Origin: Acanthopleura granulata
Lineage: Eukaryota > Mollusca > Polyplacophora > Chitonida > Chitonidae
Length of the DNA: 64,000 nt
NCBI GenBank assembly: GCA_016165875.1
Contig: JABBOT010000023.1
Span: 4,201,469 to 4,265,468, forward strand
Reading direction: 5' to 3'
Part shown: positions 27,401-58,996 of the stretch, piece by piece
How positions within the stretch are numbered: position 1 is the stretch's first letter
How the letters are laid out: every line of letters begins with the position of its first letter
Translations under genes and position numbers: made by a program
Notes under the pieces: generated by a model
Databases searched by the model: none
What the model saw: the letters and a program-made list of their open reading frames with translations, nothing else
Told to the model about the DNA's origin: nothing

Positions 27401-30400
27401 TCTTTGTTGGCTATAACCTAAACTTATGAGACAAATTATGGTCAGTCACAAAGTAATTTTTTCTATTATCCTGGCTCTTTAACATGGCAAGAAAAATTTA
27501 AAAAAAAACTTGAATTATTAACCTTTGAGTAGACTCTTTTTTGATGGGTTGGTCTGGTTACGCCCAACGAAAAATATGTTTAAGGATGACCTCATAAGAA
27601 CGATGTGGTCAAGGTTACACAGTTATACGGCACGACAAGGTTGCTACCTTTGGGACAGTTATCCCAGACCTGCAGCCTGTAGTGTTCATAGTGGTGGTTG
27701 AGCCAGGCCAGCAGGATTCTCTCCCCTACGCTGTACACATTACTACACAGAGGGTCGTTGTTGACAGGGGGTAGGCTCAGGCTCTTGTTGGGGAGGGACA
27801 GGGTCTTCATGGTGCGCGGTGTTATCTTAGCCAGTACCAGACACTGAAATAGGGGACATCAGCAAAAGTTATATTACTCCCTGCTACCTATAATTCCATG
27901 TTAGGTTTTACCAACTACTGTATTTGCTGCAACAACTTGCACAAAAAGCTGTTTTTAGAGCCAATTTTCATAAAATATCGCAGGGTGCTTAAACTCACAG
28001 TTTTAAAGTAGGATAACAGCCTATCTTCCCAACAAACATCAAAACACTTTTCTAAGTTAAAAAAAAAAACAAAAAACACTCAAAGTCTGAAAAAATGTCA
28101 TCAATGAAATTTAGATAAAATGCAGCTATCACCCATGTGTACTACAGTTTGTACAGGAGCTGTTGCAAAATCTCATGAAATTACACACTAGTTAATTTGC
28201 TATATCCACACTCAAGTGCCAAAACCAACGTCCATACAGCTTCAGAATTATCAATTTGCAACTGAGGAAATAAATGATGTGACTACAAGTGTCTAAATGA
28301 ACATTTAATCTGATTTTCTCACTGCAGTTCAAAATATACATGAAATGATGCCAAAACTTAAATCGTGACAATCCACGGAAAGCCTGGTGTGGCATTCTAA
28401 ATGTTTTTCATTAGGTAAAAGAAATGATGAACTTTCACACAACGAGACACATATAAGTCACAAATAACCACTCTTACCTTGAAGATCTGTAGCAGTATGT
28501 CTGACCAGGCCCTTTTGGAGACGGCTTCAAATGCTTCCTCCTCTAGAGCCTCGTCCTCCAAGGTTGGGGTCATCTGGTGCGTTTCCACACTTTGTCTCTC
28601 CATCTCCAGCAAGGTCTTCCACAGCTTGAAGTCATGAGGCTCCATAAGGTACTGAGGTTTGATGCCGGCAACACAACCTCCTTGACATCTATTTGACAGA
28701 AATATTGATTTTTATCCATTTGATTGATGTTTTATGCCATATTCAAAAATTTTCACTCTATGACAGTGGCTAGATTTACTGGTGGAGGGTGGCCAAGGGC
28801 CTATAATAATAACCCTTCACAAGTTATCCAGCCAATCTCCTGACTTAAAGCTGGTGATGAAGCAGCCAGCACTGGATTTGAACACACAACCTCACTGCAC
28901 GAGGGCTTAACAGTCACAGTGAGCCAATGATATAACCGTCTGAGCCATTCAGTTCCCCTAAACTGAAAAGAAAAAACTATACTGTAAACAATTTCCCTTG
29001 TATGTATTCATTACTGGGGCCAGTAAACTAAAACAAAACACTATACTATAACAATTTCACTTGTATGTATACATTACTGGGGCCCAGTAAACTAAAACAA
29101 TACACCATACTACAAACAATTTCACTTGTATGTATTTATTACTGAAAGCCAGGTTAATAGCGGAGGAAACCATATGTTTGTCAAGCTCCTCATCCAAGAT
29201 GGGTATCAATTGCTGATCCAACCAGAGCTGCATTTGAACACTTTAACACGTTACATGTAACTAAGGGCTAACCCTTAAGGGGGACCACACTTCGACCACC
29301 TGATCAGCGTTATTAGAAGGTACAGCGCTGGATACAGACAAAAACTGCACAAACAACACACATATGTGAATTCTAATCCGACACCCTTGCCTGCCATACC
29401 TAAGGAAGGTGAGTAGAGTGGAGTGCTGCCAGTACACCTGTTTGACCCGCTCTATAGGTTCCGAGGGCAGGGGCGTGTTGATGGGGATCCCTGGCATGGG
29501 GCGCCCGCTCAGGTGGGAGATCATGTCGTAGATCGTCTTGTGTTCATTCTTAACGGAGTTCAGGTGCCAGCCACCCTTCGCCTTTCCCCCATACTCCTCA
29601 TCAGGGGGCTTACGACTGATCCCACTGAAAAAAAGGGTACAGGTGTGGTAATCAATTATCACACCTCAAACAGAATGCTGGGGATTTCACATGTGCGGTG
29701 TTAGTCATCAATTGCAACACGTACAACAGAATGCTGGGATTTCAGATGTACAGTGATAGTCATCACTGTGACACCTCCAACAGGATGCTGGGACTTCATG
29801 TTGTGGTGATAGTCATCAGTTGTGACACCTCCAACAGAATGCTGGAATTTCACATTGTGGTGACAATTATCTATTATGACACCTCCAATAGAATGCTGGG
29901 CATCAATCACGTTGGGCTTACAATCCCTTTAGGCAAGAGGGTGTTGAAGACGAATTAGGGCTATGATCACCATCTTTAGATATCTCAGTCTTACAATCCC
30001 TTTAGGCCTGAAGGTGTCATATATATAACTTAGACTTATGATCACAATTTTAGTAGTGATCTGCAATCAGCTACATTTAATGTCTTGGCAATATGCAATC
30101 TGCTTAGTGATCCACGATCTGCCAAACCTCACCTCCTGAGAGTCTGTGGGATGGTGATAGGATATGGTCCTGCTGGCCAACCATGTGAGGAGAACCAGCG
30201 CTGAGCCCCCATGAGAACCTCCATGTAGAAGGCCCCCTCCTCGGAGTCCTCATCCGGGAACATGGCCGACCCCAGTGACCTGGAAGCCATGTCCTGGCGG
30301 GTCCGGCTGAACTGTTCTGAGGCCGACGGAGGCTTGTTCAAGGCACCCGTACGTGTCATAGGCGTACTGCCTGTAGACTCTAAGAGAGGTACAAACAACA

Positions 30401-33400: not shown

Positions 33401-36400
33401 AAATACAGCCAATGTTATATTAACAGCTCTAGCCATTCCGTTAATAAAAGAATTTTACTACCTGCGCTTGCTAGCTTTCATAAAATTACCTGTGCTGCAT
33501 AAAATCACAATACATAAATATCGCAGGCATAAAATTCCAATATAACACATACAATCTGATGAGATAAAAGGAAAAAGTTAACAGGACACTCCTTTCATTT
33601 TTAATGAAATTTAAACAACTGCACATGTATGTGTGTTATTACATATTTTTTTTTATAATTTGAATACTGGTGTTAAAATGTTCCTTACTAAGAAGCTGAA
33701 AGTGTATCTCTCATCATCCTGTGAATTAAGCCTTATCACACATAGTACTTCGTTTAAAGTTTACATAAGTATATTTCTTTCAAGACTTTCTGGCCTACAC
33801 AAATGAAGATGGCTACATTTTGTAATGCAAGCATTCGGCACAAACCAAACATAAGCTGAGTTGGGTAAAATCCAGGTTTCCTAAAGGGAAGGGAGACACT
33901 TTTCCATTAAACATATTATAATGAGGAGAATATGATCAGAATCATTAAGCTAAAACATATATCAAGCAGACAGAAGCAGAAGTTTGACGCATGCAATTTT
34001 CCATGATATGTAATATCTGACAGGTTGATATATTTAAAATCAGATGGTGGGTTAAAAAGCTGAAGATGTTAAAATTCATTACCCAGCTGCCAATGTAATT
34101 TAGACCTCAACTCCATTTTTTCATGCACATGTTTCAATTTAAAATTAAAGATCAAGAACATCCTCAGTATGCAAGATTATAGAAGTAAGAGATGTTAATA
34201 ATCTAGTTGTACAAACTACATCAGTAACTTCTACAAGCAATGAAAGATATACCTCAATTGTGAACTGAAATAAAATCAACAGAGAATTAAAGGTGTAATA
34301 AAACAAAGAGACATGTCCAACCTAAACTTTGTACCTGTATTATGAATGGAATATTACCACCATTCGTGTCTCGGTCATCTCATATCTTGTACGATGCACA
34401 TGCTTGGAATACAATTGCCACAGTCTAAACTTTCAAAAATTGTTACATTTCCAAGAATTATCATCAGATTACCCAAAACTGTGACTGAAAACAGCTTTAC
34501 TTATTTTTTAAATCTTTCTTCATTAGAATAACATGACTTAGTATTTGACATAGTTGAGTGGTGTTTCTACGCTGTACTTGAGTATTTTCACTCATACGAC
34601 GGTCAGCATTATGGTGGGCGGAAACCAGGCAGAGCCTGGCAGAAACCCATGACCATCCGCAGGTTGCTGGCAGGCCTGCCCATGTACATCCGGAGAGGAA
34701 GCCAACATGAGCGGTACTTGAACTCTCAGCGACCGCATTGGTGGGAGGCTAGTGCGCTAACCAACTGAGTCACGTAGCCCCCCACCCCACCCCCCAAGAT
34801 GGGCTTTTTGTAAATATAGTCATAGTGTTGGGGCGGCTGGCATTATACACTTTTCCTTTTTGCTATCAAAAAAGTTAGGTATATAATGGTACATAAAAAC
34901 CACCTTAGAGTTTAAACATTTCAATTCAATTATTTACATACCAAATTTCTTTTTTTGTGTGTTTTTTGTGTTTTTTTTTGATAACTGGTATTTTCAGATA
35001 CATTCCTCACTGGCTGGCCTGATGGTGGTCTGAATTTATTTCCATGTTTGCATTTCCATGTTAATAATAGCATGAGAAAAACTTAAAAAAAAATGTTACC
35101 TTTGTGTGAGCAATTCCTGATGCTTTAGCCATTTCAAAGAAATCAGATGGAATTGCAATCTCAATCTGATTGGTAGACAATTGCAATGGCTGCCTCAAAG
35201 CTGTGGCTATGACATGTCTTCGGGGGGTGATGATGTGGGCCTTCTGGGGGCGGGGATTGACGATATGGATACTGCTCCTTCGGGCAAGGTTCGCACTGGA
35301 CGGGAGAGGGGTTGAAGCAGGGGTGGGAGCCTTTGTCTGGTTGATGAGGATTGGCATGACAAAGTCATATGCTGCTACCTGCGATGTACAAAACACATAG
35401 GGCTGACATGGGGTTTTTAACGTAAAGGTGATTGCCTTCAATTATGGAGAAAAAATAATTGCTGTCAGCAGACTTCTCATGCTATTATGTAAGGCTGTAG
35501 AAGTTTTCTTTGGAAACATGTTGCATTATTTAATAATGTCCATTATTTAATATACGAATGTCCAATGTCCAAAACTGTTCCAATGCTTATCTGTCTTTCT
35601 TTTCAGAATGTTCTGATGTCACTGGTGTGTCACTTTTATTCGCCCCAGTGGGCACAAAGATAAGTTCTCCCTCCACAACTTGCTCTGGTAACAACATCAC
35701 ACTGAAGACTGTTTGTTAATGATATGTGTGAGGGACAGACTACAGATATGCCTCAACTCAGTGGGCATGAAGATAAGTTCTCCCTCCACAACTTGCTCTG
35801 GTAACAGTGTCACACTGACGATTGTGTTTATTAATGCTATGTGTGAGGGACAGACTACAGATATGCCTCACCTCCGTGGGCATGAAGATAAGTTCTCCCT
35901 CCACAACTTGCTCTGGTAACAGTGTCACACTGACGATTGTGTTTATTAATGCTATGTGTGAGGGACAGACTACAGATATGCCTCAACTCAGTGGGCATGA
36001 AGACAAGTTCTCCCTCCACAACTTGCTCTGGTAACAGTGTCACACTGACGATTGTGTTTATTAATGCTATGTGTGAGGGACAGACTACAGATATGCCTCA
36101 CCTCCGTGGGCATGAAGATAAGTTCTCCCTCCACAACTTGCTCTGGTAACAATGTCACACTGACGATTGTGTTTATTAATGCTATGTGTGAGGGACAGAC
36201 AACAGATATGCCTCACCTCCGTGGGCATGAAGATAAGTTCTCCCTCCACAACTTGCTCTGGTAACAACATCACACTGACGATTGTGTTTATTAATGCTAT
36301 GTGTGAGGGACAGACTACAGATATGCCTCACCTCCGTGGGCACAAAGATAAGTTCTCCCTCCACAACTTGCTCTGGTAACAATGTCACACTGACGATTGT

Positions 36401-39400
36401 GTTTATTAATGCTATGTGTGAGGGACAGACTACAGATATGCCTCACCTCCGTGGGCATGAAGATAAGTTCTCCCTCCACAACTTGCTCTGGTAACAGTGT
36501 CACACTGACGATTGTGTTTATTAATGCTATGTGTGAGGGACAGACTACAGATATACCTCACCTCTGTGGGCATGAAGATAAGTTCTCCCTCCACAACTTG
36601 CTCTGGTAACAGTGTCACAATGACGATTGTGTTTATTAATGCTATGTGTGAGGGACAGACTACAGATATGCCTCACCTCCGTGGGCATGAAGATAAGTTC
36701 TCCCTCCACAACTTGCTCTGGTAACAATGTCACACTGAAGATGCCAGGGTTGAGCAGCTGATACATGTAATCCTCTGTGAAAGTAAGACAAAAGGGAAAA
36801 TAATGACACATTCACATTATCAGAGCTTCTCAACAATCGTGATTACATCACAAAAACATGTACACACAGTTTCAAAATACATGTATCAAGATATTTAAAA
36901 ATTCAAACACTATTTGTTCTAACCATTCCAGCCAAAACGTTTTTAGATATTATTTACAACTTAAATTTTCCATACAGCATATCATTCTACCTTCCAAGTA
37001 AATCTCTACACACCTTTCTGAGATAAAAAAAGCTCTTAGAATAATGCAGATTGAGCAACTGTATCATGGACAAGTGATTAGGTTTTATATGGAGCAAATA
37101 CATTCCTTGAAACTGTTTTTTGACATTTTTTTTTTTATATAATTGTATTTTAGCTTTCACACTGACCAGATGATACTTTACAAATGCCCACGGTGCTCTT
37201 TCATTCCAAATGTACTTATTATTTAACAATGAATAATATTTAAGAATATGATCCTCAAACATAGTAAACTAATGAACAGAAATGAAAGTGCCATACCTGC
37301 TGTTTGGTATCGGGGAAAGTTGAGGCTGAAATCTTTATGTCTGGTCAGGTCAATTTCCACTCGAGCTCTGGTGCACATCTGGTGAACCAAAATGAAATAC
37401 ACACAGGACTATTCATTTTTACATAATACAGGTACACATCAACATTTAAGAACTTTGTTTTCACATCAAAAAAAAACAGGAACTTTGTTTTCAAGTAAGA
37501 AAAACAAATTAGAGTGTCACCTTCTTGGAGAGAAATGATTGAAAACTGAACAGTGATGATATAACATTTTTTGTTATTAGCCATTAACAGCAATATCCAT
37601 CTATTTTTCTCTGGTACTTACCTTATTGGTTAGACTGAAATTAATCACACTTCCTGAGCCACAGTACACACCTCCAAAACCAAATTCACTCTGAAAAACA
37701 CAGTAGAGAAAAATACATTCAAGCAAACAAAAATGAATTACAACTATGCACAGAACAACAGAAAACTTATCTTGCTTCAGATGGTATGACGGATTTACAT
37801 TTACTCCATAAACCGCACATCCGTATTTCTTGTACAGCCTGCCTATAGTTAAACAACAATGTTGAGAATATTATCCAGTTTAAGAAAATTATCTACTGTG
37901 TTAATTCTTTTGACAGCAGTTCAATTTAGTTTGAATCCTCAAGACACTAGGACACTTTTCTATACTGGCACGAATGGACACTTTTTTTAAATACTGGAGG
38001 TTGAACTCACAGCGACCGCATTGATGGGAGGCTTGCAGGTCATTGTTCTGCACTAGCGTGCTAACCGACTGAGCCACGGAGGCCCCCTGATTTGCTAAAA
38101 ATCACATGTGACTTAATTTTCACATGATTGTCCACCAACCAATCATCCTTCAGAACTAAAGTTTGGCCACTAGAGCAATATCTGATGCTCTTTCCATACA
38201 AGCCATTTCAAGGGTTCAAAATTATACATTTTTCTTGCTGTTACTAAACTCCCCTTACCACATCAATGTCCACACTAGGCGGTTCCACCGAGCCTCCTAC
38301 CCTCAGCTCTATACTCTTCCTGCCCTTGATGGCTACCTCCAGGCGGGTGTCAAACTTGAGGATGGCATCAGGGGTGAGGCTGATCTGTATCTCAGCATGT
38401 CCCCCCACAGGCACGACCCCATGGACTGGGGAGACTGTCAGGCCAGGGAAGGGGCAAGGGTCCATCACCTGGTTATTGCACAGATCATACATGTCATCAC
38501 AACATGTGCCACTGAGGACAACCAATCACAATAGGCAGTTAAATTACTAAAATAAACTTCATTCAGAGGCAGCAAAATTCAGAATTTTCTCACATTCCTG
38601 AATGACAAAATATAAAATCTATAACTTCCCCTGATTAAACATTTACTGAATACGCACCCTTAACCACAATATATAGATTATTATTTGATTACTGCAGAAC
38701 AACACTCGCTAAAGCCAAGATTTCTCAGCTGCTGAATATAATTCTATTAAGTGTAATTATCCAGTAATCTCTCAGTTTAAATAAGTTAACAATGCCCAAT
38801 ACAATAGACCTCCACACATTTTCTCCTTTGAAATTTTGTCATGAATATTAGGTACGGAAAGTTTAATCAATTTGCAAGAAACTCATGTACAGTGCCATTT
38901 GAATACAGTAACTAACGCTAACGGATGGCTACACTGAGGCCTATTAACACAGTCACCATTGAGGAACATTCAAACAGACTCTCATTGTATACGCTCCCTA
39001 CCTGAAAGAAGGCATGGTGTTGTCCTAGGTTCTGGAGCAGAGCCTTCTTTGTAGTGGTCAGGTGGACTGGGACCTGGCCAAATAGTACTCTGTGCTCCGT
39101 GAACTGAACCACAGTGTCACCCAGCTGAGAAAAATATAACACTAAACTTATACACTGTAATAGCCCTATAAATCACCCACAAAATGCATTTTTAAAGGAA
39201 AATAATGGTCATATAATAATTTAGAAGGGTGTTGCCCAGGCAAACTTCAAACATCTCTCTAAGAGCAACAGAACTGACAGGATCAGGCAAAATGTGTACT
39301 GTATCCAAGAACAAAATTTTAAATTGACCACAATATAAAAAGTACACAAGTTACTAGACTACTGGGAATCTATCTCCCTTTACATTCTACCTTTAATTTT

Positions 39401-45400: not shown

Positions 45401-48400
45401 TCTCTATCACAACAGCAATACCACTCACATCTTGGATCAGGTTTGATTTCCTCTTGGGTCAGTTTCTTGGGTCGCAGGCCAGCGCCTGTCTTAATGCCAA
45501 TATCCATTTCATTGTTGGTGTCATTGAATTCCCTATAGTACAGACATTGGAATTGTGAAATGAATTGTGGAGTCATGGAATTGCTGACATGGTTTCTTCT
45601 CGTATACAACAACCAGTTCTATTGTAGATTGCAACGTCATGAATCGCAGTATATCTTTAAATCAATGTTCGTTTAAATCATCAATTTTTAAATGTACCAT
45701 ATAAAATTCAAGTGATCAGAAATGGAATGAGCTGCAAGCAGAGAAAGGTCAAGCAGAGTTTCTGAAAGAGAACCCAGACCTTCTGAGTTTAAGATGTGCG
45801 ATTTAACCATCTGGACTAGCCTTACGCAAAATACATAAATAAAAAACACAGACATCAATCTGCTCCTGTGGTATTTGCAGACATGTCTCCCTTAATGACT
45901 TGCCTGTCTTTTAGGATGCCCAGTCTGGTTTGGCGCATATTCCTCAGCATCTGTCTGTAGTGATTTCTGTGAGACTTCTTCTCCTTCTCCTCCTTGTCAG
46001 TATAGGCATAGTCTGGATCCACATAGTTGTGTCGATCTTCCTTGGTGAAAATTGTCCTGCACAAAAAAATTTACATCGATGAAATCATGGATTTCATTGA
46101 TAGGACTAACTTAATGATAGATCACATGAAATTTTATGTGATAAACAGTAAATCACCAATAATTTCACATGGTGTTTCAGCACATACTAATCACTTTTTT
46201 TGTACAGTTCCCACAGCGTAATGATTTACTGTACTACAACTACATGGGACAAACCACCAACCTTTGGCAAGTACCTCTCCACATATCAGACACAGATATA
46301 CATCCCATATCAGTAGAAGGCAAATAGCCTTTAACAAACATTAGACCACTCAAACAGTCACATAAGCATCGCTGACCAAACCTTACAAAATGTGAGAGCA
46401 CAAATTCCCGTTTAACACTCCAAGAGGGAATCAGCTTACGCTTTGTGTATCTTACCTGTATGCCTCCTTCCTATTGCTGGGCCTGATGCTGTGAGCTCTG
46501 TCATTAGGGAACGTGACCAGAGGATCCTCATCACCACCAGAATGGCTTGACTTGTGATCGTGAAGGCTGCTCTTCGCTGCATACGACATGGCGTTCCTTG
46601 GCTTGTTAGACTTTAACTCTGACATTTTTGTATCGACATACAGACCCACCTCACTGGCTATCAGTGGCGTTACGCCTACAAAAAAATACACAACACTGTC
46701 ACAGGATTGTAGGCTTTTTAATTCTAACTGAAATGAGGTATATTTCTTGCCTATGTCTAGACAGAGGCAAAGTGAAAATCTTGTACTGTGAGTTGTGCAA
46801 CAGTCCTTTCAACATTTATGCATGTATTTCGGTCAGACTGGGATGGTGTCTGCTGGTAGCAGATTGGTTCCAATGCTGACAAATTTATTTATGGTGCTAC
46901 CTCACTGGAACATCATACCAAGGACAATCTTTACACCGTCACAGAAAACAGACATATAAGCATCCTCATTTGTGCAATCTTATCACAGTTCTGAGTGCTG
47001 AAACCACTAACATGACCAAGTACACAAATATTTAAGTCTTATGCACAGCCCAAGTTACACGATATAAATCCTGATTTGCACAGTGAAAACTTTCTTTCAT
47101 CTGAGGATACCAGGTAAACTAGATCTGAAAGCCAACAGTATTCACTGACAGGAATTTTTCTTTCTTACCTGGATTAAACTTTGGGGGCCTTTTGACAGTT
47201 ATGGGATCACTGCGCCCCACTAGCTGGAGTGGGAAAGTTTGGATGACCTCTAGATGGTACATGACAGGATCTCTGTCATCTGCCACTGGACCAACCACGT
47301 CCAACATCTGCTGCGGTTTGAAACTCCCTAAACAATAAACAAACCCACCTGTACATACAGATTTTAAACAATATTATATACAAAAATTCCTGTTGGTTTA
47401 GTTTCACGTGAACTGAGTTTTCCAATCACTCTATATTGATCATACATCGCTTCTTTAAAATTCCAAACAACACTTTATAACATTTAAACATAATTATTCC
47501 ATCTTTCCAACCTTCAATTTAACACGACTAGTTTAATTTCATTTTATGATCGTATTACATCAGACAATATTTAGAAAAAAAATTGTCAAGGTTTGAGGCC
47601 TATCCTCTGGGCATCCAACTGCCTTCATGCTTATTCAAATTCCTAAACATATAATTCCTTTTCCTTGCTAGAAAACTTGGAAGAGTCTACAGATAACAAT
47701 TTCTTATAACTCAAAAAAGCTTGTATAAAATTCAAGTAGCTTTAGGCAAACAGACTCAGTGATTTATATATTTATTTCATTTATACGACGTCAACAAGTG
47801 TTATGGTGGGAAGACGACGGGCACAGCCCGGGGCAAACCCACGCCCATCCACGGGTTGCTGGGAGACCTCCTCACGTACAATCAGAGAGGAAGATAGCGT
47901 GACGTTGTCTCAAACTCACAGTGACCACACTGGTCAGGAGTTCCTGAGTTATTGTGTTTTGTTAATATGCTACAGCCACTTCGGACCCCTCACTGATTTA
48001 GTACATAAATGAACCGTGACTTTAGGTAAGGTCCAATAAACAAAAAATGACACCTCTCAAATTTTTACAAAGAATTTCAACACGAATACTACATGACTTT
48101 TTTTCCATCAAAGATTACAATGCTCCACAGTTTTGATCTCATCACATACCAACTTGATTTGGTGCAAATGAAATGGTGATGTCTTGGGAGTGTTTGGGAG
48201 CTATGTTGCCCTTGGTTGGATGGACACTGAAGTGGGCGATCTTCCTGAACTCATAGGTAGCCGGTAGAACATTGGAGTTGTTGCTAAGAGAGCAGAGTAA
48301 ATCCACTCGTTCCCCAACGGGGCATTCTCCAAAATCATACTTCTGCTTGGGCTGTATCTCCAGAAGCACAGGTAAGGCTGTGCCAGTTAAAGCTACCTCA

Positions 48401-51400
48401 ACAAATGTACCTAGGAGAATAAAATAAGGTTGTAAGACAACATGAAATGGGAAAATATCGAACACTGTATTCACTCTGAAACTACACCCAAAGAATTGCA
48501 TTTTCATAGGCAAATAAAACTCAAAGGATATTACTTCTGGTGCTGAAGATTTTTAAAACGTGTTTTTTAAGATCAACAGAAGTCTTAGAATCAGGAAAAA
48601 TGAGAAACTTGGTCATGGGTGAACTTTAAGGTCTAACACAATGGTCTAAGCTACTAAATAGCTGCATATTGGATAACGGCATACTAATGAAGCAGGTGAC
48701 AAAAAGTTTTTACTAATGATATAGGTAATCCAAAAACAATAGCTGTACTTTACACAGAATATCTGCATAATACATCAGAATGGTTCCTAAAAAAATTATA
48801 ATATTTATAGGGAAATGGGCTGAAAAATGTCATAAGAAACAGATATTTGATTTATCCAAATGCTGTTGTAACGTTAGTGGTGGAACTGAACATCATACAT
48901 GGAGTGGCAACATTTGATGTGGTGCTTTGTTAAATGTGACTGAATGAAACATCGCCTGGTTTCTGTACCTTCCACAGTACTTTTCTCCACATTTTCAGGC
49001 CTGCTGATAAAACCTCTGTTTGCTCCAATCATCTGGATGTGCATGAACAGGGCAAAGTCCTTTCTGGGAGCCGGCTCAGTCTGTGTCTTCCAGCCTTGAT
49101 GGGAGGCATGCCATCTGAAAGTTGTTTATTTACTTCACAAGAGTTTAAAAATGTACTCAAAAATTTTAACTCACATGACAACTCCCTCTGGGACAAACTA
49201 ACTGTAAACTATTTGTGCCCAAACTTGGTCCTTCCTCTCAACAAATGTGTTCAACCTGAGTTTTAATCATAGTCATATTTTTTATATCCATGTATTCATA
49301 AATATTATTAAAATTCAGACTTAGTGCAAGTATTGGGATCTATATAAACAACACAATTTTTTCTTTGCAGAAAAAAAAGTTACAAGAAACACAACTTACA
49401 AAATTTCATGAAAGTGACTCCTAATCACATCAAAAAGTCAACATGCATATTCCTCTAAAGGCCATATTATTACAGTAAAACCTAGTGATGTTTTTCCATC
49501 GCCTGGGACGGGAACAATACCTGGGACTGAATCTGAATATTACTGGAATCTTCTCCCAAGGTGCCAAGATACCCTGGTTAGGTATGGCTGTCACTAGTGA
49601 TGTCAGAACATTGGTCTTTCCTCGGCTCTTATCTCCTCCACTGCTCTGTTCTGCTAGCGTGGCTTCTGTGGTTAAGGTGAGGTCCACACCCTGATTTAAT
49701 AAGCCATGGATTTGAGAAGAATGTTAAAGGGAAAAATAAACTGCATATCCACATCGTTAATTCAATAATTTCAGGTACCTGTACAAGATATTTTTAAATA
49801 TCTCCACTTGAAAGTTGAAAATGTATTGTAGTAATTACTGTTACAAATAAAAATGTCAGACATCCAAAATTTTTACAGACTGAGAAAATCCTCTTCAAAA
49901 AATATCATACAGGAACAAATCCTGTTATTAAGTCTTCATGCGTAAGAAGACCACCAGATAAGTTCTCCAACATGCAATTTCAATATAATCAAGGGTATGG
50001 TGTGAAACCCAGAATAAATACTACAATCACATCTCTGGTATATGTATAATGATTTATTTATATAATTTATTTATTTGATTTGTGTTTCATGCCATGCTCA
50101 AGAATACTTCATTTATACGATGGCGACTAGTATTACCGACAGTGAGAGGATATATGTATAATTAATATATTCAACAGTTAGGACCAGTTAGCTAGTAAAC
50201 ACAAAAATATACACAAGGCCATTTGATACCAAAATGTGGAAAAATCTCAAAAGATCAGTTACGATATCTGAGATCATTTCAAAACTTACAGCCTCCTGAG
50301 CGATGGCATCCTCATCCAAAATGGCAACAAAACTGACTGGCTCTGGACCGTTGTTGTACAAAATGGCCTGCTGAGCTTTGTCTGTACCATAATATGTGGG
50401 TCCGAACTGTATACAGTCCATTCTCTCCTCGGTATCCATGGACAACAACTCTAAGGCTCGCTCCATAATGTTTCCCCGCACACGAACGGTTTTGCTTTTC
50501 TCATATCCTTCAAGTTTGACCCTGAAAAAAGAACAACAAAAAACGCTATCAGTACAAGCAATATGTAGTCTCAAATGCAAAATTTTATGAAATGGCATAT
50601 AATTATTGATGGCAAGTTGTTGCTGTATTTCACAGATGTTTACCAAAACGAGAAGCATTATGTGGTGTCCAAAACATAACAAAAACCCAACACATACAGA
50701 TGTATACTCACTATAATGACAACACATTAACCGTTTCCAACAATGAAATCATATCTAGAGGAGACATTCCCTAATGAACTGAAATGTTACGTAACTACAA
50801 TCTTGAACCAATTTCGGAACTGCAAACTGATGTTTACAAAACATTCAATAATTAATTTTGCTTTCACAATCACAGCCGACATTTGCACTTACTTGAACTC
50901 CTCATCAATTCTGTCGGCTTTGTTTGTCACAAGTTCCACCTAAAAAGGTAAAATTATATACAGTTAATTAAACTGGTATTTCAGTTGGGTTATACTATAT
51001 CACATAAAACGAATGACAGTTCATGAATTAATATATTCATGTGTTCAGTGAAGTTTAAGCAGCACAAGGTCTGAATAGCAGAAAAAGCAACCACATTAGG
51101 TTAAACGGCATTTCTTCAAGGCCTTAACCAACTTAACACCTTGTTCATATAAATCCCCAGTTTGAGTTCATTAGAACATGACTCAGTCTCTAGAGTAAGA
51201 AACACTCAATTACAGTAATACTTTTGAATTCTCCTGGCAATATTACATTGAGAGCAATGTTGTTCACAAATTTATGAATCAGGATCCAGCACCCACTTAC
51301 CTTTATAGACTGCACACTTTTGGCAGATACAATCCCAGTTGTTGGCAGAATCGAGATGGGCTTATCCCCATTGTATTTGATTCTGAACTCGCCTGGCTTG

Positions 51401-53195
51401 GAGCCACGGTTAACAATTTTAACGGTTTTAGACAAGACTTTACTGTTTGCCACAACACTTCCAAAGTCCACTCCTCTGTCAACTTCCAGGCATGGTTGAG
51501 CTGGATATCTGTATATAACAAAAACAGACAGATAACGTCAAAATAGTGTGTACACAATTTTTTTTCAATCATATTTGATTCATTGGGCTCTAGATAAGAG
51601 CAAATGAAGAAAATAAAATTTCTATTTTCTTTTATTTCTTGTTCATGCTATCACACTTTTGTTAATACTTGTAACTAGTGCACTCAACATTATATCACTC
51701 TGGTAGTGCTAATAAGACATACATGTAATAGCCGAGAAACAGTCAAAGTTTGAGGCAAATACCTACTTGTGACAAACTCCTTGACAAAAAGTCATGGGGA
51801 GACAATGTCCATGAACTTATGAACTCTGAAGTATTCTTAGAGATTTATTTGTCCTTTATCCATTAATCATAAAGACTAAAATCACAGACATCATTAAACT
51901 CCAGCATATTACTATACACTACTTTCCTGTTCAAATTGTGTGTAAACAATTATTTTTATAGATTACTGGGTGTAAACCGAAACGCGGGATTTTTAAATAA
52001 TGCACTTAAGGTAAAATGGGTATTACTGATATATCACATGTCCAATACATTTTGACAAGAGAGATATGTTACAGGACCGACTATAAAAAATGTCCCATCT
52101 ATAGCAGTTAAGTACCTATAATGTTTGAAATGAGAAAATTTTCAGCCATGTTCACTTTCTAGAGGGTGATTAAAAATTAACTGAAGTACTGTGAACTAGA
52201 CACATACGCCTGTACAGGAACTTCCACGACATCTCCGTCCACCGTAATGACAAGGCGGTCTTGTGCCTTGGTTGTTTCTGGTGACTCATACTCAACTACA
52301 GCTGGAACACACAGGCCAGGAGCTACTGGATTTTCTGGGTTTTTAACTTTCAGCTTAAACTTCTGTAAACATATATGAAATATTCATGACTTTTTCTTCT
52401 CAAAAATTTCTCTTGCATTACTGATGCCAAAGGATGTGGGTCTAAGGCCAAACAATATGTATGTAACACATAAATGTATATACATGTAGTTACAATTTAT
52501 TTATTTATTTATTTATTTATTTGATTGGTGTTTTACGCCATACTCAAGAATATTTCACTTATACGACGGCATCCAGCATTATGGTGGGAGGAAACCAGGC
52601 ACAGCCCGGGGGAACCCACAACCATCTGCAGGTTGCTGGCAGACCTTCCCACGTACGGACGGAGAGGAAGCCAGCATGAACCGGTCTTGAGCTCACAGCG
52701 ACTGCATTGGTGGAAGGCTTTGGGTCATTGTGCTGCGATAGCACGCTAACCGACTGAGCCACGGAGGCCCCCCTAGTTACAATTCAAATTATGAATTGAC
52801 GATTAACGGTAAAAGTAAGGTAGGTTGGTGAAATATGTGCCTAAAGTTACATGACAAGTTAACTTCAATGTGCCTACTGATCATAAAATTATTACAGATT
52901 ACAATGGTAAAAAAATTACCCCTTAATGATTCAGACTAAAACAATGTCAATAGATGTATACACCTTCAACACCACACAAATGTGAATGTTTCATTTTAGA
53001 AAATCTCATTTATTCATGGAATAACATCTCCGGAAACTAACTTACCTTTGATTTTGGTCCATAGTAACGAATATTTTTGCTGGTTTTGCTAATGTTTTTC
53101 ACAGTGACATGTACTTGGTAAAGAGTATTCGGTGCTGTGTCACAAAAATCAACGACAGATGGGGTGATGCGAATTCCGGCAGTGTCGCCATCCAT
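6571..53195 (-). CDS. CFAP47: CFAP47, complete, 60 coding exons
   Basis: Cilia- and flagella-associated protein 47, an axonemal protein of motile cilia and sperm flagella, built of many ASH/MSP-type beta-sandwich repeats with one calponin-homology domain mid-protein. The start ATG at 53195 follows two in-frame TAA codons; the stop is at 6571. Exons, 5' to 3': 53046-53195, 52208-52362, 51301-51508, 50893-50939, 50290-50521, 49521-49690, 48969-49114, 48150-48410, 47169-47327, 46456-46675, 45904-46056, 45429-45532, 44724-44806, 43870-43966, 42972-43075, 42038-42150, 41487-41620, 40635-40745, 39887-40017, 39002-39124, 38259-38468, 37622-37690, 37297-37378, 36677-36774, 35100-35378, 33148-33337, 32559-32757, 32072-32163, 31535-31664, 31024-31123, 30592-30757, 30133-30379, 29400-29624, 28478-28688, 27648-27843, 26815-26912, 25845-25961, 25139-25273, 24204-24467, 22467-22749, 22000-22251, 20903-21042, 20373-20489, 19540-19672, 18809-19014, 18232-18375, 17828-17946, 17184-17238, 16211-16359, 15612-15756, 15024-15199, 14380-14487, 13361-13577, 12636-12792, 11765-11996, 11257-11531, 10447-10618, 9186-9347, 7500-7668, 6571-6789. 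All phases agree: 9,639 nt, 3,212 residues, near the human length. Introns are gt-ag except one gc-ag. Exon edges are hand-read; a few may shift. Confidence 0.93.
7246..7482 (+). mobile_element. tRNA-derived SINE with the shared tail
   Basis: The head is tRNA-like (CCTCGCTCGCTCAGGAGGTTA with an A-box feel, and GAGTTCATGTGTC at the B-box place). The tail reads ATTAATCTGACCACAATCATATAAG, then TTCTTAGGCACAGTGTT and an ATCA-rich end. The tail is a diverged form of the 3' tail of the other SINEs here, but the head differs. It ends about 18 bp before the CFAP47 exon 59 donor. Confidence 0.6.
8857..9060. repeat. Palindromic MITE-like element, arms about 95 bp
   Basis: A near-complete inverted repeat centred near 8962. 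The left end TTTGGCATTTTTTTTATAGT pairs with the right end read on the other strand, TTTTGCGGCATTTTTTTTACAGT. Further pairs are TTAAAA, CAGTGGACT, TTGAAGCATA/CTGAAGCATA and ATTCTTTTTT/ATTCTTTTCT. Nothing is coded. It sits in the CFAP47 intron between exons 58 and 59. Confidence 0.7.
9500..9880. repeat. Opposed copies of a dispersed repeat
   Basis: AATTCTTCAACCTTTTTGC at 9660-9678 is matched in reverse complement, with one mismatch, by GCAAAAAGGTTGAGGAATT at 9851-9869. The left part also carries the motif AAGATCAACAGAACTCTCAG with ATCAGACAAAATGTG. This motif recurs near 39,255 and 48,570 and in reverse near 10,065, 24,600 and 58,475, so the unit belongs to an interspersed family of unknown class. 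Confidence 0.5.
12940..13031. repeat. 22-bp tandem repeat, about four copies
   Basis: Successive units of the form CATGTTAAAACAxGGxGGCC lie in a CFAP47 intron between exons 53 and 54. They are degenerate, with period about 22-23 bp. Confidence 0.7.
13801..14068 (-). mobile_element. tRNA-derived SINE, full length
   Basis: Minus-strand SINE. The right end is the tRNA-like head: GAGCCTCTGTGTCTCAGTTGG then GTTAGCGTGCTA (A box). A DNA-binding-like central part contains GGAAGCCAGCATGAGCTGGAC in reverse sense. The left end is the tail TGGCGTAAAACACCAATCAG with AAATAAAT. Same family as 52,497-52,771. Confidence 0.8.
16725..16812 (-). mobile_element. tRNA-like SINE head fragment
   Basis: On the minus strand it reads GGGGGCCTGGTGGTTAGGGT (A-box-like), then AGATCTGGGATCAATCCC (B-box-like). 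It is a short truncated element without a recognised tail, in the CFAP47 intron between exons 48 and 49. It could also be an old tRNA pseudogene; no functional cloverleaf is claimed. Confidence 0.5.
17664..17731. repeat. 34-bp tandem duplication
   Basis: Two and a partial copy of a unit containing CTTCTGCAAGGGGTGTGATAATCACAC, in a CFAP47 intron. A degenerate copy (GGGGTGTGAATCTAGG) precedes it near 17,628. Confidence 0.7.
21115..21430. repeat. Dispersed repeat, copy A
   Basis: Shares blocks in the same order with 43,435-43,735: GGCAAGCAGACGA, GAGGTGAAAGATAA, GAGGCAGAGTTC/GAGTAGAGTTG, TATTAACTTCCATGTTATT with GACAAT, and a GCCC-ATGTC-GT-TC end. No coding domain. Class unknown, probably a non-autonomous element. 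Confidence 0.55.
24595..24765. repeat. Dispersed repeat copy (GATTCTGAGAG family)
   Basis: Partner of 58,465-58,635 with blocks in the same order, including TTGGAAGGTAGGATG versus TTGGAAGATGGATG. In the CFAP47 intron between exons 38 and 39. Class unknown. Confidence 0.55.
25139..28688 (-). CDS. CFAP47: CFAP47 exons 34-38: calponin-homology region
   Basis: Encodes about residues 1663-1915. The CH domain runs roughly from residue 1770 to 1895. It opens with an amphipathic first helix (ERILLAWLN), continues with a WVVNFDFDLLDGLVLGALL segment that fits the conserved DL-DG-L core of CH domains, and ends with a D-NPINLLMLSYHLY helix. The preceding part (exon 34) is acidic and helical. In CFAP47 of other animals the CH domain also sits mid-protein, which supports the model and the exon order. 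Whether this copy binds microtubules or actin cannot be read from sequence. Confidence 0.85.
28715..28960 (-). mobile_element. tRNA-derived SINE, second head type with shared tail
   Basis: The minus-strand head reads AGGGGAACTGAATGGCTCAGACGGTTATATCATTGGC (tRNA-like A box). The tail TGGCATAAAACATCAATCAAATG matches the tail of the main SINE family here, while head and middle differ. It ends 27 bp before the CFAP47 exon 34 acceptor, so its tail forms part of that intron's 3' end. Confidence 0.65.
28975..29143. repeat. About 64-bp tandem repeat, 2.6 copies
   Basis: Units begin ACTATACT-TAAACAATTT and contain CACTTGTATGTAT, ATTACTGGGGC and CAGTAAACTAAAACAA. Intronic in CFAP47 (between exons 33 and 34). 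Confidence 0.75.
29655..29910. repeat. 54-56-bp tandem repeat, five copies
   Basis: The marker CAACAGAATGCTGG recurs at 29671, 29727, 29781, 29835 and 29889. Each copy also carries TGACACCTCC and a GATAGTCATCA-like block. Short reading frames here, with SNRMLG on plus and HSVGGV on minus, are by-products of the repeat. Located directly upstream (gene sense) of CFAP47 exon 33. Confidence 0.85.
34553..34783 (-). mobile_element. tRNA-derived SINE
   Basis: The minus-strand head GGGCTACGTGACTCAGTTGGTTAG sits at the right end. Conserved body blocks are GGAAGCCAACATGAG, GGTTGCTGGCAGGCC and CATTATGGTGGGCGGAAAC (plus sense), and the tail at the left is diverged. It lies in the CFAP47 intron between exons 25 and 26. 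Confidence 0.75.
35646..36738 (-). repeat. 115-bp tandem array copying an exon end plus splice donor
   Basis: Ten copies of the same motif (plus-strand GTGGGC) lie at 35648, 35761, 35876, 35991, 36106, 36221, 36336, 36451, 36566 and 36681. Spacing is exactly 115 bp, except 113 bp for the first. On the gene strand each unit is about 58 bp of exon 24 (through its terminal GAG), a gt donor, and about 55 bp of intron. Copies differ at only a few sites, so the array is recent or homogenised. Donors are gtgagg in most copies and gttgag in two (upstream of 35761 and 35991). The exon-like and intron-like halves are equally conserved. Confidence 0.95.
36677..36774 (-). CDS. CFAP47: CFAP47 exon 24, parent of the 115-bp array
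   Basis: Encodes about residues 1088-1120. The acceptor is ttcacag before AGGATTAC and the donor GAG|gtgagg at 36676-36675. Its last 58-62 bp plus about 55 bp of the following intron are the unit that has been copied nine more times downstream. Splicing at this first donor joins phase 0 to phase 0 of exon 25 (35100-35378) and gives family-like sequence across the join (FMPTE then VAAYDFV). Use of more distal donors would break the frame. Confidence 0.85.
37998..38088 (-). mobile_element. SINE fragment (5' head only)
   Basis: Plus-sense blocks GAACTCACAGCGACCGCATT, GGGAGGCTTGCAGGTCATT and GCGTGCTAACCGACTGAGCC correspond to the tRNA head of the main SINE family. The body and tail are missing. 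Confidence 0.7.
43435..43735. repeat. Dispersed repeat, copy B
   Basis: Same ordered blocks as 21,115-21,430 (GGCAAGCAGACGATGAG, GCGAAAGATAA, TATTAACTTCCACGTTATT then CAGACAATCTG). In the CFAP47 intron between exons 14 and 15. Confidence 0.55.
45429..46675 (-). CDS. CFAP47: CFAP47 exons 10-12: charged linker
   Basis: Encodes about residues 510-668. Unlike the flanking beta-sandwich modules it is hydrophilic, rich in Ser/His (HDHKSSHSGGDED) and then Lys/Glu/Arg (DKEEKEKKSHR, RQMLRNMRQ), and probably forms helix or disorder. The intron between exons 11 and 12 begins with GC rather than GT: donor at 45903-45902, exon end ACAG followed by gcaagt. Only this donor keeps the frame. The neighbouring exons resume normal CFAP47 sequence. 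Confidence 0.8.
47169..53195 (-). CDS. CFAP47: CFAP47 exons 1-9: N-terminal ASH/MSP-like repeats
   Basis: Encodes about residues 1-509. The start region reads as an immunoglobulin-like ASH module (an ITPSVVDF entry, then a YQVHVTVKN strand). A second module opens with VDFGSVVANSKV, whose strand pattern with NRGSKPGEF is the usual signature of these repeats in HYDIN, CFAP47 and related axonemal proteins. Later modules start at QFGPTYYG and YDFGECPVGE. This part lies next to the divergent DNAJB13 promoter, so it is transcribed first. Known role of the family: axonemal scaffold, with loss giving abnormal sperm flagella in mammals. Confidence 0.85.
47760..47945 (-). mobile_element. Diverged SINE fragment
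   Basis: Plus-sense blocks TTTATACGACG, GTTATGGTGGGAAG, GCACAGCCCGGGGCAAACCC, GGGTTGCTGGGAGACC and AGAGAGGAAG follow the order of the main SINE. The head is lost or very diverged. Confidence 0.65.
49130..49440. repeat. Relative of the 3.5-kb foldback element
   Basis: Contains AACAAATGTGTTCAACCTG, TTTTAATCATAG and TTCATAAATATTATT in the same order as the loop region of the element at 3461-4026 (CTAACAAATTCAACCTG, TTTTGATCATG, TTCATAAATATTATT). Inverted arms are not obvious here, so it may be a half copy. Confidence 0.45.
50049..50140 (-). mobile_element. SINE tail fragment
   Basis: Plus-sense TTTATTTGATTTGTGTTTCATGCC, CTCAAGAATACTTCATTTATACGATGGCGAC. This is only the tail of the main SINE family, truncated. 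Confidence 0.65.
52497..52771 (-). mobile_element. tRNA-derived SINE, full length
   Basis: The best preserved copy in the window. Minus-strand head GGGGCCTCCGTGGCTCAGTCGG then TTAGCGTGCTAT; B-box-like GAGCTCAAGACC; body GGCTTCCTCTCCGTCCGTACG; tail TATGGCGTAAAACACCAATCAA and a run of AAAT repeats (52,497-52,523). In CFAP47 intron 1. SINEs of this layout are transcribed by RNA polymerase III and moved by partner LINEs; no LINE protein is seen here. Confidence 0.88.
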
Positions 53196-53652: not shown

Positions 53653-56600
53653 ATGGGGGTTGACTACTACAATATATTAGGGCTGACACGCAGTGCCGCT
53701 AGTGGAGATATTAAGAAAAAGTAAGTCTATTTCATCAAAATAATCGCCGCATTCTCCAAGTAGAATATTCCCATTCGTCGATTATTGAGTGTATTTCTTA
53801 ATGGTGTTTTAAGACATTTTGATACACAGAAATGCCGCGCATAATGTTCATCCATGTAGTAGTAAAACGTTTCAACAATAGCAACAATTTACAGAACCTG
53901 AATGAATAACAGTTTAATGATGTTCAGTCCAAAATCATGGGTAAGTAATCAACCCCGGCAAGTGTCAGTAGCTGCAGGGTTTAATTATGGTTGCAGCCAT
54001 AAATCAAAAAGGAACTCATTGTGCAGTACAAATGTTAGTTAATGAATTGAATATCTGACTGCATTAAATTGTTTGCATTTTTTTCAGTTATCGAAAACTT
54101 GCCTTGAAATATCACCCAGAGAAAAACCCTAACGACCAAGCAGCATATGATAAGTTCAAGCAGCTGGCAGAAGCATACGATGTCCTCAGTGACTGTAAGT
54201 AGTCATCAAGAGATGTGGTTCATTCAGAATTAATTTTACCAAAAAGAACAAGGTTATTTATAATAAATATGTATGCCATATGAAATAAAGAAGTAGTAAC
54301 ATGTTTGAATGTGAACATATGAGAAGGAAATAAATTTAAGAAACAAATCACCTGATACATTTAGACGAAAATCCTTTTAAGTGACTTTTTTGTTGCAGTA
54401 AGGAAAAGAGCTGTGTATGATCAGTTTGGAGAAGAAGGTTTAAAAAATGGGGTCCCAGAGGGCAGTGGAGAGTCAGGAGCCTGGACCAAAGGCTACACAT
54501 TTCATGGCAACCCTGACAAGGTCTTCCGAGATTTCTTTGGTGGAGATAACCCATTCCAAGGTATAATTGCTTAACTGCTTTTCAGAGATTTCAGATAATA
54601 CATTAAGAGTAAAGAGTGTAGAATGGATTATAGGAAAATATTCTCCATCCCACCCAGAAACCTGCGCTTATGATTTTCTAATCTTTAGTGAAATATCCTG
54701 GATGATGGTGATAAAAACATTTTTACAAGTGTAATTTGTCTTGCTTTACACACACTAAAGCCGTTCATCGAACAACTTCCATCCAAAGAGTTTTAAACTT
54801 GAAGACAGTCACCCTTTCCAAACACAGTTGTGTACAATAATTCCATTCATACAAAGGATGTTTGCATGAACATTTCATTGCAGAGTGATCACCTCTCTGA
54901 AAATCAGATGTTGTGACTCTCTTTGCTGCTACATCTCACTTTGTCAATTTATTTTTGATAAGGATTCAGCAGGTCATGTCTGAATAAGTTCTTTGATTTT
55001 ACAGTAAATCATATATTGTTGTGGAATCCAGTGAAGGCTGGTACACTTTAATTAAATTAATGGTGTCAGGCTGTACTCTTCACCTATTTGTAAACCACTG
55101 CTTACAGCTTCTAATCAAGTCTTTCAGCACTTGATAAACCCATTATGTACTCGATGATCTTTGTCTTGATATGGCATTAAATATTTATCATTGCAGTATG
55201 TGGTCACTAAAGGGTTAGATAAGTACATTGTAAGCCACCAGATGTCTCGCACTAAATTATTAACAACCTCGGATTCCCTTCCATCTTATAAAGGATCTTG
55301 TATCGTTACTAAGAACGCTGTTGATCTTATCAGCTCCTTCCTGGTGATATAGCAGAAGGTGCATAGCTCTCTACTGTTGAATACCAATGTAGGCATCATT
55401 CACATTATATACTGTTTTTCATAAAAGAACAGAACTGTTTGAGTGAATATTGAAGTCTTTAACATGTCATCAGATATTTATTGTTTTTTGGTGTAAACTT
55501 AATAACCAGAAAATCATCCCTATGAGTATTGCAGAGTCATGACAGTGGACCAAAGTCTTAACAATCTGTGCACCATGCAACAGACACTTGTTTTCTTGGC
55601 AGGACTGTATTCTCTATAACAGGATTACACACATGTGTTGTGGTGATGTTTTTGCAGAATTCTATGACCGCGTGGACGGTGACCTGAGTATGGGGTTTGG
55701 AGGGCTGGCAGGCAGGGGCAGGAAGAAGCAGGATCCACCCATAGAGAGAGATTTGGCTCTGTCCCTGGAAGAAGTTTATCATGGCTGTACCAAAAAGATG
55801 AAAATTTCTCGCAGGGTAAGAAGTTATAATGCTGTTAAAGTTACCTGTCAGACAGGCTGTCCAGAAATGGGAAACTTATTACTCAGGTCTACTTGCTATA
55901 TACTTTTACATGTTAATGATTTCCTTCACCTTTTGAACACATGTACTACTGTGAAATACTAGTACATCAGACAGGTATTGCCTATTGATTTTCAAAAGAG
56001 GTTACATTAAAATTAAAATCTTATTACCATGAATTTCAGGTTATGAATGATGATGGTCACACATCGAGTATCAGGGACAAAATTCTAACAATAACAGTGA
56101 AGAAGGGGTGGAAGCCTGGAACAAAAATAACATTCCCACAGGAGGGTGATCAGGGACCAAATAACGTACCAGGTTAGTGAGTTTTGCTGTAATTAATATA
56201 TGGTGTCAGAATTTACTTTTGTAACTGATCACTCCCATACTCAAAACATATTGGGCACATCCTAGCTGGTGATTGTTATCTATAAAAGATTGTATTGTTT
56301 ATTTCCTTTTCCATTTCAGCTTTGTGGTTCAGAAGGCTGATGTGAAAGATGGTATTCGTTCAAACTAGATAGTTTGGGTTATCATACTTCAGTCGTATGT
56401 GATCATATGTACATGTAGTGAAATAGGAAAATTACCTGCCTGTATAGTCTCTGTTTAGTTTTGCTAGAGGACCAGAAGTGATAATTCAAAAGCTCTGCAG
56501 CATTACAGGGGACAATGATATGTCGTTACACATCTTAGAACTAGCTTGTGAGAAGCGATTACGCCCAATGTCAACAAACAGCTCCTTGAGCATTTTCTGC

Positions 56601-57494
56601 AATACAGCAAATGTGGTGTTAGTAATAATTTACATTTTCTATTCACAGCCGACATCGTGTTTATTGTGAAAGATAAGTCACACCCAAATTTTCGGAGAGA
56701 GGGCACCACTTTGATCTACACAGCCGACGTTCCCCTAGGCAAGGCTCTGACTGGCTGTACTGTAGACATTCACACCTTGGATGACAGAACACTTCACATT
56801 CCCATTAACGATATCGTCAAGTAGGTGACATCAGTTCTACTTACTCTGCCGAATCACTTTGTAATGTAAACATGTTCTGAAATACTTACTGGCTGCATTA
56901 TTTTAGTTGCATTCAAATGTACCACTCCATTACCTATTTGATTGATTGGTGCTCCATAATGTTTCACTTACATGATGGGGGTCAGATTTATGGGTGAACA
57001 GAGTTGGAGTGCCAGGATTAAACCACTGACCTTTGCCAGGCACCTGACAGACCTCCTTAATTCTGCAACTCAAACTGCAAGAGCTAGATTTAAACATGCC
57101 TGGTAGTCACAGAGATCCAGTATCTGGTCTATACTTTCTGATTCTTCAGTAATTTTGTACATAAATTATTACGTAATCAGGCTTCTGAAAATTGACCTGG
57201 AATTTGATCCACAAAACTGTCATAGATTAAGTTGATTTCCCTACCAAATACTTTTGTTCAGTTTGTATAAAGTAAGCTACTCTTTATTCTATCAACTACG
57301 ACCGACAGTGTTAAAAAACTTCTTTTCTCTATCATTTCAGGCCAGGTTATGTTAAGGTTGTTCCTGGAGAAGGTATGCCCATATCAACAAATCCAGCTGA
57401 AAAAGGAGACTTGATCATCGAGTTCAACATCATGTTCCCAACGACGTTATCCCCAGAGAGGAAAGAAGTCGTACGAAGTGCCCTTTTGCATTAA
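53653..57494 (+). CDS. DNAJB13: DNAJB13, complete, seven exons
   Basis: DnaJ homolog subfamily B member 13, a type-II J-protein of the axonemal radial spoke; in humans its loss causes primary ciliary dyskinesia and sperm defects. Exons: 53653-53720, 54088-54194, 54399-54560, 55658-55815, 56040-56172, 56649-56820, 57341-57494. All introns are gt-ag and phases agree: 954 nt, 317 residues (human 316). An in-frame TAA lies upstream of the ATG. The J domain covers about residues 1-70 (DYYNILG, then helix [10 protein letters not shown]), followed by a short Gly-containing linker ([15 protein letters not shown]). The C-terminal peptide-binding domain runs from about 135 ([14 protein letters not shown]) to the end, with conserved [14 protein letters not shown] and VVPGEGMP. 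The catalytic HPD of the J domain is HPE (residues 32-34), as expected for this atypical family. Divergent from CFAP47. Confidence 0.96.
56938..57120 (-). mobile_element. Probable diverged SINE in DNAJB13 intron 6
   Basis: The plus-sense start TTTGATTGATTGGTG with TGTTTCACTTACATGATGG resembles the shared SINE tail, and the later CAGGCACCTGACAGACCTCC resembles the body. The head is not clear. Low-confidence relative of the shared-tail family. Confidence 0.4.
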
Positions 57495-58040: not shown

Positions 58041-58290
58041 TTTGATTTATTTATATATCTGATTCATGTTTTACACCAAATATTTCATTTATACGACTGC
58101 GGCCTTATGGTGGAAGGAAACTGGTCAGAGCCCGGGGGAAACCCATGGCCGTCCGCAGGTGGCTGGGAGACTTTCACCATACAGCCAGAGCGGAAGCCAG
58201 GACGGGCTAAACTTGAACTCAATGACTGCTTTAGTGAGAGGCAACTGGGTCATTGCACTGCACTTGCACACTAACCAACTGACCATCTGA
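58041..58290 (-). mobile_element. tRNA-derived SINE
   Basis: Plus-sense order: TTTATTTATATATCTGATTC tail, TTTATACGACTGCGGCC, GCCCGGGGGAAACCCATGGCC, GGAAGCCAGGACGGGC, then ACACTAACCAACTGACC head. Moderately diverged and full length. Confidence 0.75.
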
Positions 58291-58742: not shown

Positions 58743-58996
58743 CAGGCCTCTGTGGCTTGGTTAGCACGCTAATGCAGCACAATGACCCAGAAACCTTCCA
58801 CCAGTGCGATTGCTTTGAGCTGAAGTCCAGCTCATGCTGGTTTCCTGTCCTGCTGTACGTGGGAAGGTCTGCCAGCAAGCTGCGGGTGGTTGTGGGTTTT
58901 CCCGACTCAGTCCAGCCCAGTTTCGTTCCAGCATAATGTTGGCTGCCATCGTTTGTGAGTATGGCGTAAAACACCAACCAAATAAATAAATAAAAT
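58743..58996 (+). mobile_element. tRNA-derived SINE, plus orientation
   Basis: Head GCAGGCCTCTGTGGCTTGGTTAGCACGC; body GAGCTGAAGTCCAGCTCATG (B-box region) and GTACGTGGGAAGGTCTGCC; tail GAGTATGGCGTAAAACACCAACC then AAATAAATAAAT. It is the only full copy of the main family on this strand. Confidence 0.85.

Follow-up and report, generated by a model that had tools for sequence, protein, structure and literature searches.

A minisatellite spanning an exon end and its splice donor in CFAP47 of the chiton Acanthopleura granulata

Introduction

Tandem repeats that run over exon/intron boundaries have been named mirages in amphioxus (PMC3087553). They are described as minisatellite-like tandem duplications of exon/intron boundaries in the globin genes BflGb6 and BflGb9 and in Adh3, TnC and PGBD5; the mirages of globin, Adh, TnC and PGBD5 hold splice signals and reportedly leave regular splicing undisturbed (PMC3087553, PMC3902484), and one report warns that the repeated sites might act as cryptic splice sites (PMC3087553). 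Here we describe an array of this kind in the chiton Acanthopleura granulata. It lies on the minus strand of a stretch of 64,000 nucleotides (assembly GCA_016165875.1, contig JABBOT010000023.1, positions 4,201,469 to 4,265,468), hereafter the window, and consists of ten copies of the end of exon 24 of CFAP47, nine of them inside the following intron.

Related structures are described in human genes. In intron 18 of ABCA7, a variable number tandem repeat (VNTR) has a 25-bp unit that starts with the GT of the exon 18 donor, and transcripts retaining one unit make up 2 ± 1% of isoforms when the word 'respectively' in the source is read in listed order (PMC5954066). CBS carries a 31-bp VNTR, c.1444_1467+7(16_21), whose name specifies 24 exon and 7 intron nucleotides in 16-21 copies, and a further variant, c.844_845ins68, in which the intron 7/exon 8 junction is duplicated and splicing strongly prefers one copy (PMC2630376). 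Internal tandem repeats at the exon-intron boundaries of human duplicated genes are mostly minisatellites and can alter splicing (PMC2812944). Among the titles listed in searches on such repeats, none names an example from a mollusc or from CFAP47; these searches were not directed at either, and no absence is claimed.

Results and discussion

Ten copies of an exon end in CFAP47

The host gene of the array is CFAP47, as judged from homology, because the product of exons 23-25 and two more frames in the window match the same chain of one structure. The 153-residue product of the three exons resembles Cilia and flagella-associated protein 47 in PDB 9ijj (chain 9ijj_4A, residues 1069-1192, E 5.6e-5), and the two other frames match residues 1576-1630 and 1625-1696 of that chain. 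The gene label given in an earlier reading of these letters (the sequence-only reading) is thus borne out by three separate matches. The gene occupies the minus strand, and the joined frame is open from exon 23, which ends at 37297, through exon 24 (36774-36677, 98 nt; the number follows the earlier reading) into exon 25 (35378-35100, 279 nt, a multiple of 3). Joining the donor of exon 24, donor 1, to 35378 preserves an F.P.EVA.YDF run common to the CFAP47 of 9ijj.

The last 58 nt of exon 24 are the tail of unit 1. Nine repeats of a 57-nt intron piece (55 nt in the last) plus a further copy of the tail follow on the gene strand, so that the array extends over 35644-36734. Tandem Repeats Finder (TRF) reports 35648-36742, with a period of 115, 9.5 copies, 96% matches and a score of 1987. 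The unit had been proposed to combine an exon end, its donor and adjoining intron, and this is what we find (58 nt of exon end, the donor and 57 nt of intron). The sequence-only reading was also right to count ten copies, but their period is not exact: the spacing is 115 nt in eight of nine steps and 113 nt in the last. The array limit that it placed at 36774 is withdrawn, as this position is the first base of the true exon and the TRF repeat begins at 36742. At the other edge, homology between the units does not extend past the tenth tail.

Chance is excluded as the source of the array because a 26-mer core occurs ten times in the window and never in 100 shuffles. A search of the genome at the DNA level with one unit gives ten matches, all of which make up the array itself at C23:4237116-4238210 (the best candidates were scored, so that counts are lower bounds and distant copies may escape). 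The core does not occur in the viral contigs searched, and a homologue search with one opposite-strand frame of the array gives none.

Each of units 2-9 departs from the consensus at 0 to 4 sites. Units 3 and 8 match throughout their 115 nt, and the tail of exon 24 itself shows no difference from that of unit 6. Unit 10 differs at 42 of 115 sites, as the others share no homology with its intron part; its tail has 6 mismatches to the exon in 58 positions. Several variants are common to units that are not neighbors (4 and 10, 5 and 10, 7 and 9), a pattern that points to exchange inside the array. At two sites of the exon-like copies (one in units 5 and 10, the other in units 4 and 10), a paired change turns CA into TG, as expected if a CpG had decayed on either strand. 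Putative variation of copy number between individuals is plausible.

The hexamer AATAAA recurs on the gene strand in eight units (at 36637, 36522, 36407, 36292, 36177, 36062, 35947 and 35832), with one more just outside at 35640. The first, at 36632-36637, lies 39 nt past donor 1. These nine copies in an intron of 1298 nt compare with 71 across the minus strand of the 64-kb window, the nine included, and they are possible intronic poly(A) signals.

Set beside the amphioxus mirages, the CFAP47 array shares their main traits. The repeat is head-to-tail and minisatellite-like, its unit holds exon, splice site and intron of the adjoining true boundary, the GT donor persists in seven of ten units, and homogenized inner units stand next to a diverged edge unit. 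The published mirages likewise hold splice signals in many, not all, of their units, and their edge units stand outside homogenization. Unit sizes are similar (150-160 bp in BflGb6, 157 bp in BflGb9, 60 and 108 bp in PGBD5, against 115 bp here), and a true boundary is spanned, which in BflGb9 is an exon end as in CFAP47. Unlike the amphioxus cases, the CFAP47 array resides in a mollusc and in a different gene, and is known here from the DNA of one assembly. The molluscan nature of the genome is borne out by eight tandem matches to the beta-sandwich domain of molluscan haemocyanin, 8 of 8 above the cut-off, in ~11 kb of one contig; COX1 was not found in the genome, and the published A. granulata report counts the mitochondrial genome separately (PMC7850002). 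It is a further host of a structure already in print and not a new kind. Its earlier ranking as the most unusual structure of the stretch can hold for the window; examples of the kind have been published. What the array adds is a mollusc to the boundary-spanning minisatellites published from amphioxus and human, in a gene whose homologue encodes a ciliary protein.

The human systems resemble it in part. As in ABCA7, the array starts at a functional donor, a unit offers a spare donor, the next exon is in frame, and a transcript that retains one unit loses the frame, since division by 3 leaves remainder 1 for 25 as for 115. The ABCA7 unit, in contrast, is intronic from its GT on, contains no exon copy and is far shorter; the CFAP47 unit includes exon sequence instead of beginning with the donor dinucleotide, and three of its ten copies lack GT. 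By analogy, the CFAP47 array may work like the ABCA7 VNTR; we do not place it in that class. The CBS VNTR also joins an exon part to an intron part in many copies, with a shorter unit and in another gene. In c.844_845ins68, one of the duplicated junctions is preferred, as we propose for CFAP47, but it is an exon start that is duplicated there and an exon end here. The internal tandem repeats of human duplicated genes differ in belonging to recent segmental-duplication genes and in their reported effect, which is the origin of novel introns.

Splice signals and predicted products

Splice sites were scored with human splice-site frequencies, not with a model trained on the host species, and the scores serve for ranking sites only. 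Donor 1 (36675-36676, GAG|gtgagg) scores 11.38, a value reached by 0.4% of 4326 GT sites on the strand, and is needed for the full-length protein. The same nine bases, with the same score, recur on the minus strand at donor 2 (36560-36561), donor 3 (36445-36446), donor 4 (36330-36331), donor 5 (36215-36216), donor 6 (36100-36101) and donor 8 (35870-35871). At the corresponding places, units 7 (35985-35986) and 9 (35755-35756) read GAG|ttgagg and unit 10 (35642-35643), where array homology ends, reads GGG|gcgaat, all three without GT. The ten near-identical 5' splice sites originally counted are thereby reduced to the seven of units 1-6 and 8. Because these seven are identical over nine nucleotides, the donor sequence alone cannot choose among them; position can. 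The intron is in this sense a natural test of spliceosome choice, in which the site is constant and the position varies. RNA structure was considered as the chooser of donor 1 and dismissed, as local folding does not set that site apart. No Rfam family is found in the window at gathering scores.

The acceptor of exon 24 scores 12.15 (0.16% of 3861 AG sites on the minus strand score as high) and that of exon 25 scores 5.83. The cag preceding the exon-like copies scores -4.42 (-2.08 in unit 10), and 63.5% of the AG sites of the strand score at least -4.42. It was said to precede every internal unit and does so in eight of nine intronic copies (units 3-10), but unit 2 has cat. The 58-nt pseudo-exons proposed on this basis can be drawn with both cag and GT in five of nine intronic copies, but their acceptor is poor and they are the weaker of two possible types. 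A stronger acceptor within the unit, ccctcacacatag|CATTAA, scores 4.67, a value attained by 9.2% of AG sites, and its copy before unit 6 scores 6.85. This acceptor opens 80-nt pseudo-exons, six of nine being complete with AG and GT (before units 2, 3, 4, 5, 6 and 8); the example at 36447-36526, which ends at donor 3, would bring in a stop at its second codon. The first such cassette, before unit 2, begins 35 nt past donor 1 and is probably too near that site to splice with it.

Among the modelled outcomes (each donor place by itself, retention of the whole intron, and sets of pseudo-exons spliced from donor 1), donor 1 joined directly to exon 25 gives the sole product without a stop through exon 25. 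Donor places 2-10 (three of them non-GT) and retention of the whole intron lead to a premature stop in all ten cases, within exon 25 when donor 2 adds its 115 nt and before exon 25 in the remainder. Inclusion of pseudo-exons closes the frame in every set, 31 of 31 for the five complete 58-nt forms and 63 of 63 for the six 80-nt forms, the latter at the second codon. These results agree with the sequence-only reading, which had noted a remainder of 1 on dividing either 115 or 58 by 3 and had argued that a wrong donor or a pseudo-exon would disrupt the frame and that splicing must favor the first donor.

Abundance of arrays and evidence from relatives

To place the array among others of the genome, 20 stretches of 10 kb were sampled at a fixed offset, one each from contigs 1-20 (200 kb in total). 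The sample contains 51 rows, or 35 non-overlapping arrays of period at least 30, distributed over 13 of 20 stretches. Nine of the 35 have at least 5 copies and at least 90% match; five have a period of at least 100. No array in the 200-kb sample reaches the score of 1987, the highest being 1382. The G+C content of the sample is 34.1%, compared with 38.8% in the window, and the sample may hold fewer genes. Extrapolated from these 200 kb, the genome would hold an estimated ~27,000 arrays that reach both 5 copies and 90% match. For the 20,470 genes of A. granulata (PMC7850002), with an assumed 15 boundaries in each, random 60-bp seeds are estimated to hit an exon boundary in ~3% of cases, so that hundreds of boundary arrays are expected before selection. 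Among the arrays of the window, that of CFAP47 alone overlaps an exon end that could be established.

Relatives are known from proteins alone. A search with the 153-residue product returns nine homologues (P0001-P0009), all of which cover exon 25 sequence, and a peptide of exon 24 plus units 1 and 2 returns one, P0010, among three candidates. P0010 is identical at 36 of 36 residues over exon 24, including two before it and one after, and then continues with INAKGDI and a stop; its match to the array peptide is confined to the exon. The sequence of P0010 past the donor is a poor fit to the unit 1 intron: of 2000 random GT starts, 91% do as well or better. Compared with the sequence after unit 10, the fraction is 0.06 of 2000 random GT starts (with the GC of unit 10 read as GT, and over eight residues and a stop only), which is suggestive of an original intron start beyond unit 10. 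P0010 accordingly has both the exon and a donor at the same position, but the ~24 bases visible past it do not show the unit. Because a relative with an identical exon 24 protein has other sequence past the same donor, the array is probably young.

At the opposite end of the intron, the homology of P0001, P0003, P0004 and P0005 breaks exactly before VAAYDF, with a Q ahead, as from cag. In P0002, MPTE runs unbroken into VAAYDF at the same exon 24/25 junction, and the intron is absent there. P0006-P0009 start inside exon 25 and are uninformative on the junction.

Origin and consequences of the array

An exon is recognized as a unit between its acceptor and the nearest donor, a principle known as exon definition. 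On this basis, we consider it likely that the CFAP47 array is a mirage and a near-neutral by-product, with splicing almost always at donor 1 and exon definition shielding the true exon. A stretch of ~115 bp holding the exon end, the donor and part of the intron would have been duplicated in tandem, and slippage or unequal exchange would then have raised the number of copies. The 98-nt exon would be defined between its strong acceptor at 36774 and the nearest donor, so that donor 1 would nearly always be used. Donors 2-6 and 8 would be used rarely, and their frameshifted or stop-containing products would be removed by nonsense-mediated decay. The array would then be tolerated as a near-neutral by-product of a minisatellite-rich genome. 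Preference for donor 1 is most likely by analogy with exon definition elsewhere, the published mirages and ABCA7, and the array most likely leaves splicing nearly normal. The genome search, which places the unit only in this array, supports this account, and there is no sign of each copy being kept intact, because GT is missing from the donor places of units 7, 9 and 10 and cag from unit 2.

Several observations weigh against so benign a view. The nine bases of donor 1 have an unpaired probability of 1.7e-5 in local folding, the other six intact donors range from 1.2e-6 to 1.3e-3, and all seven fall below the regional median of 8.1e-3. The acceptors of the 80-nt pseudo-exons score close to that of exon 25. 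An exon end inside the array is exposed to gene conversion, for which 'near-neutral' may be too mild a term. Finally, the ABCA7 array is not silent: longer repeats go with more skipping of exon 19 and lower expression (PMC5954066).

The last of these points also favors an unlikely alternative, in which the array would dampen CFAP47 in a length-dependent manner: some transcripts would be diverted by its spare donors, by its poison-exon cassettes and by AATAAA signals within the intron, copy number setting the full-length output. The seven donors that rank with the best 0.4% of GT sites, the six complete cassettes with acceptors of 4.67 to 6.85 beside 5.83 for exon 25 and a stop in all 63 sets, the density of AATAAA in the intron and an exon 25 that could be skipped in frame would all suit such a role. 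These motif counts, however, follow from the copying of one unit and amount to a single observation; three donors and one cag have been lost, and the first cassette probably lies too close to donor 1. A more specific version, which we hold to be quite improbable, makes each unit a self-contained transcript-diverting cassette (a strong donor, AATAAA 39 nt on and an acceptor to an 80-nt stop exon), so that drifting copy number tunes full-length CFAP47. If true, it would mean heritable variation in a ciliary gene by way of splicing noise.

An error of assembly, either in the copy number or in the array itself, seems similarly improbable. Units hold distinguishing variants, some of them common to the non-neighboring pairs listed above, and Nanopore reads are long compared with its 1.1 kb. 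What speaks for such an error is the identity of units 3 and 8 over 115 nt, together with the hybrid Illumina/Nanopore build of the A. granulata assembly (PMC7850002), a type that can mis-size arrays. Least probable, and in our judgment very doubtful, is an intron gain in progress, by which a tandem duplication carrying AG|GT created the CFAP47 intron. The units do carry GAG|GT, no intron separates exons 24 and 25 in P0002, and it has been suggested that new introns can arise by way of mirages (PMC3087553). Judged on the proteins of relatives, however, the intron was not absent before the duplication: it existed without the unit beside its donor, because P0001 and P0003-P0005 lose homology at the same acceptor, with Q ahead, and in P0010 the coding frame gives way to different sequence precisely at the shared donor. 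Arrays like that of CFAP47 can also mislead gene predictors and short-read mapping.

Neighboring repeats and genes

Two smaller arrays lie near CFAP47 exons. In that of 64 bp x 2.9 at 28959-29144, an open frame runs to a GT, and the array was examined as a second mirage. It was rejected: the homology to 9ijj_4A reaches residue 1630 on one side and begins again at 1625 beyond the array. The frame of the array itself has no PDB match at E up to 10, and the array is accordingly taken to be intronic. The array of 54 bp x 4.6 at 29651-29900 was likewise set aside as a mirage, as it ends ~26 nt short of an acceptor (estimated by eye) and does not reach the exon.

On the plus strand, the neighboring gene at 54365-56821 (extent by eye from open frames) is DNAJB13, its frame at 56552-56821 matching DNAJB13 of 9fqr (E 5.9e-20). 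Two ciliary genes stand side by side here, as DNAJB13 neighbors CFAP47. A dispersed repeat that looks like a short interspersed nuclear element (SINE), and may resemble one from molluscs, occurs on both strands in pieces 63-91% alike (13801-14048, 34623-34750, 47773-47942, 50061-50147, 52507-52720, 58126-58196, 58757-58903 and 61130-61200). Inverted repeats are present at 3533-3954 (arms of 145 nt, 72%) and 5429-5574 (arms of 70 nt, 79%).

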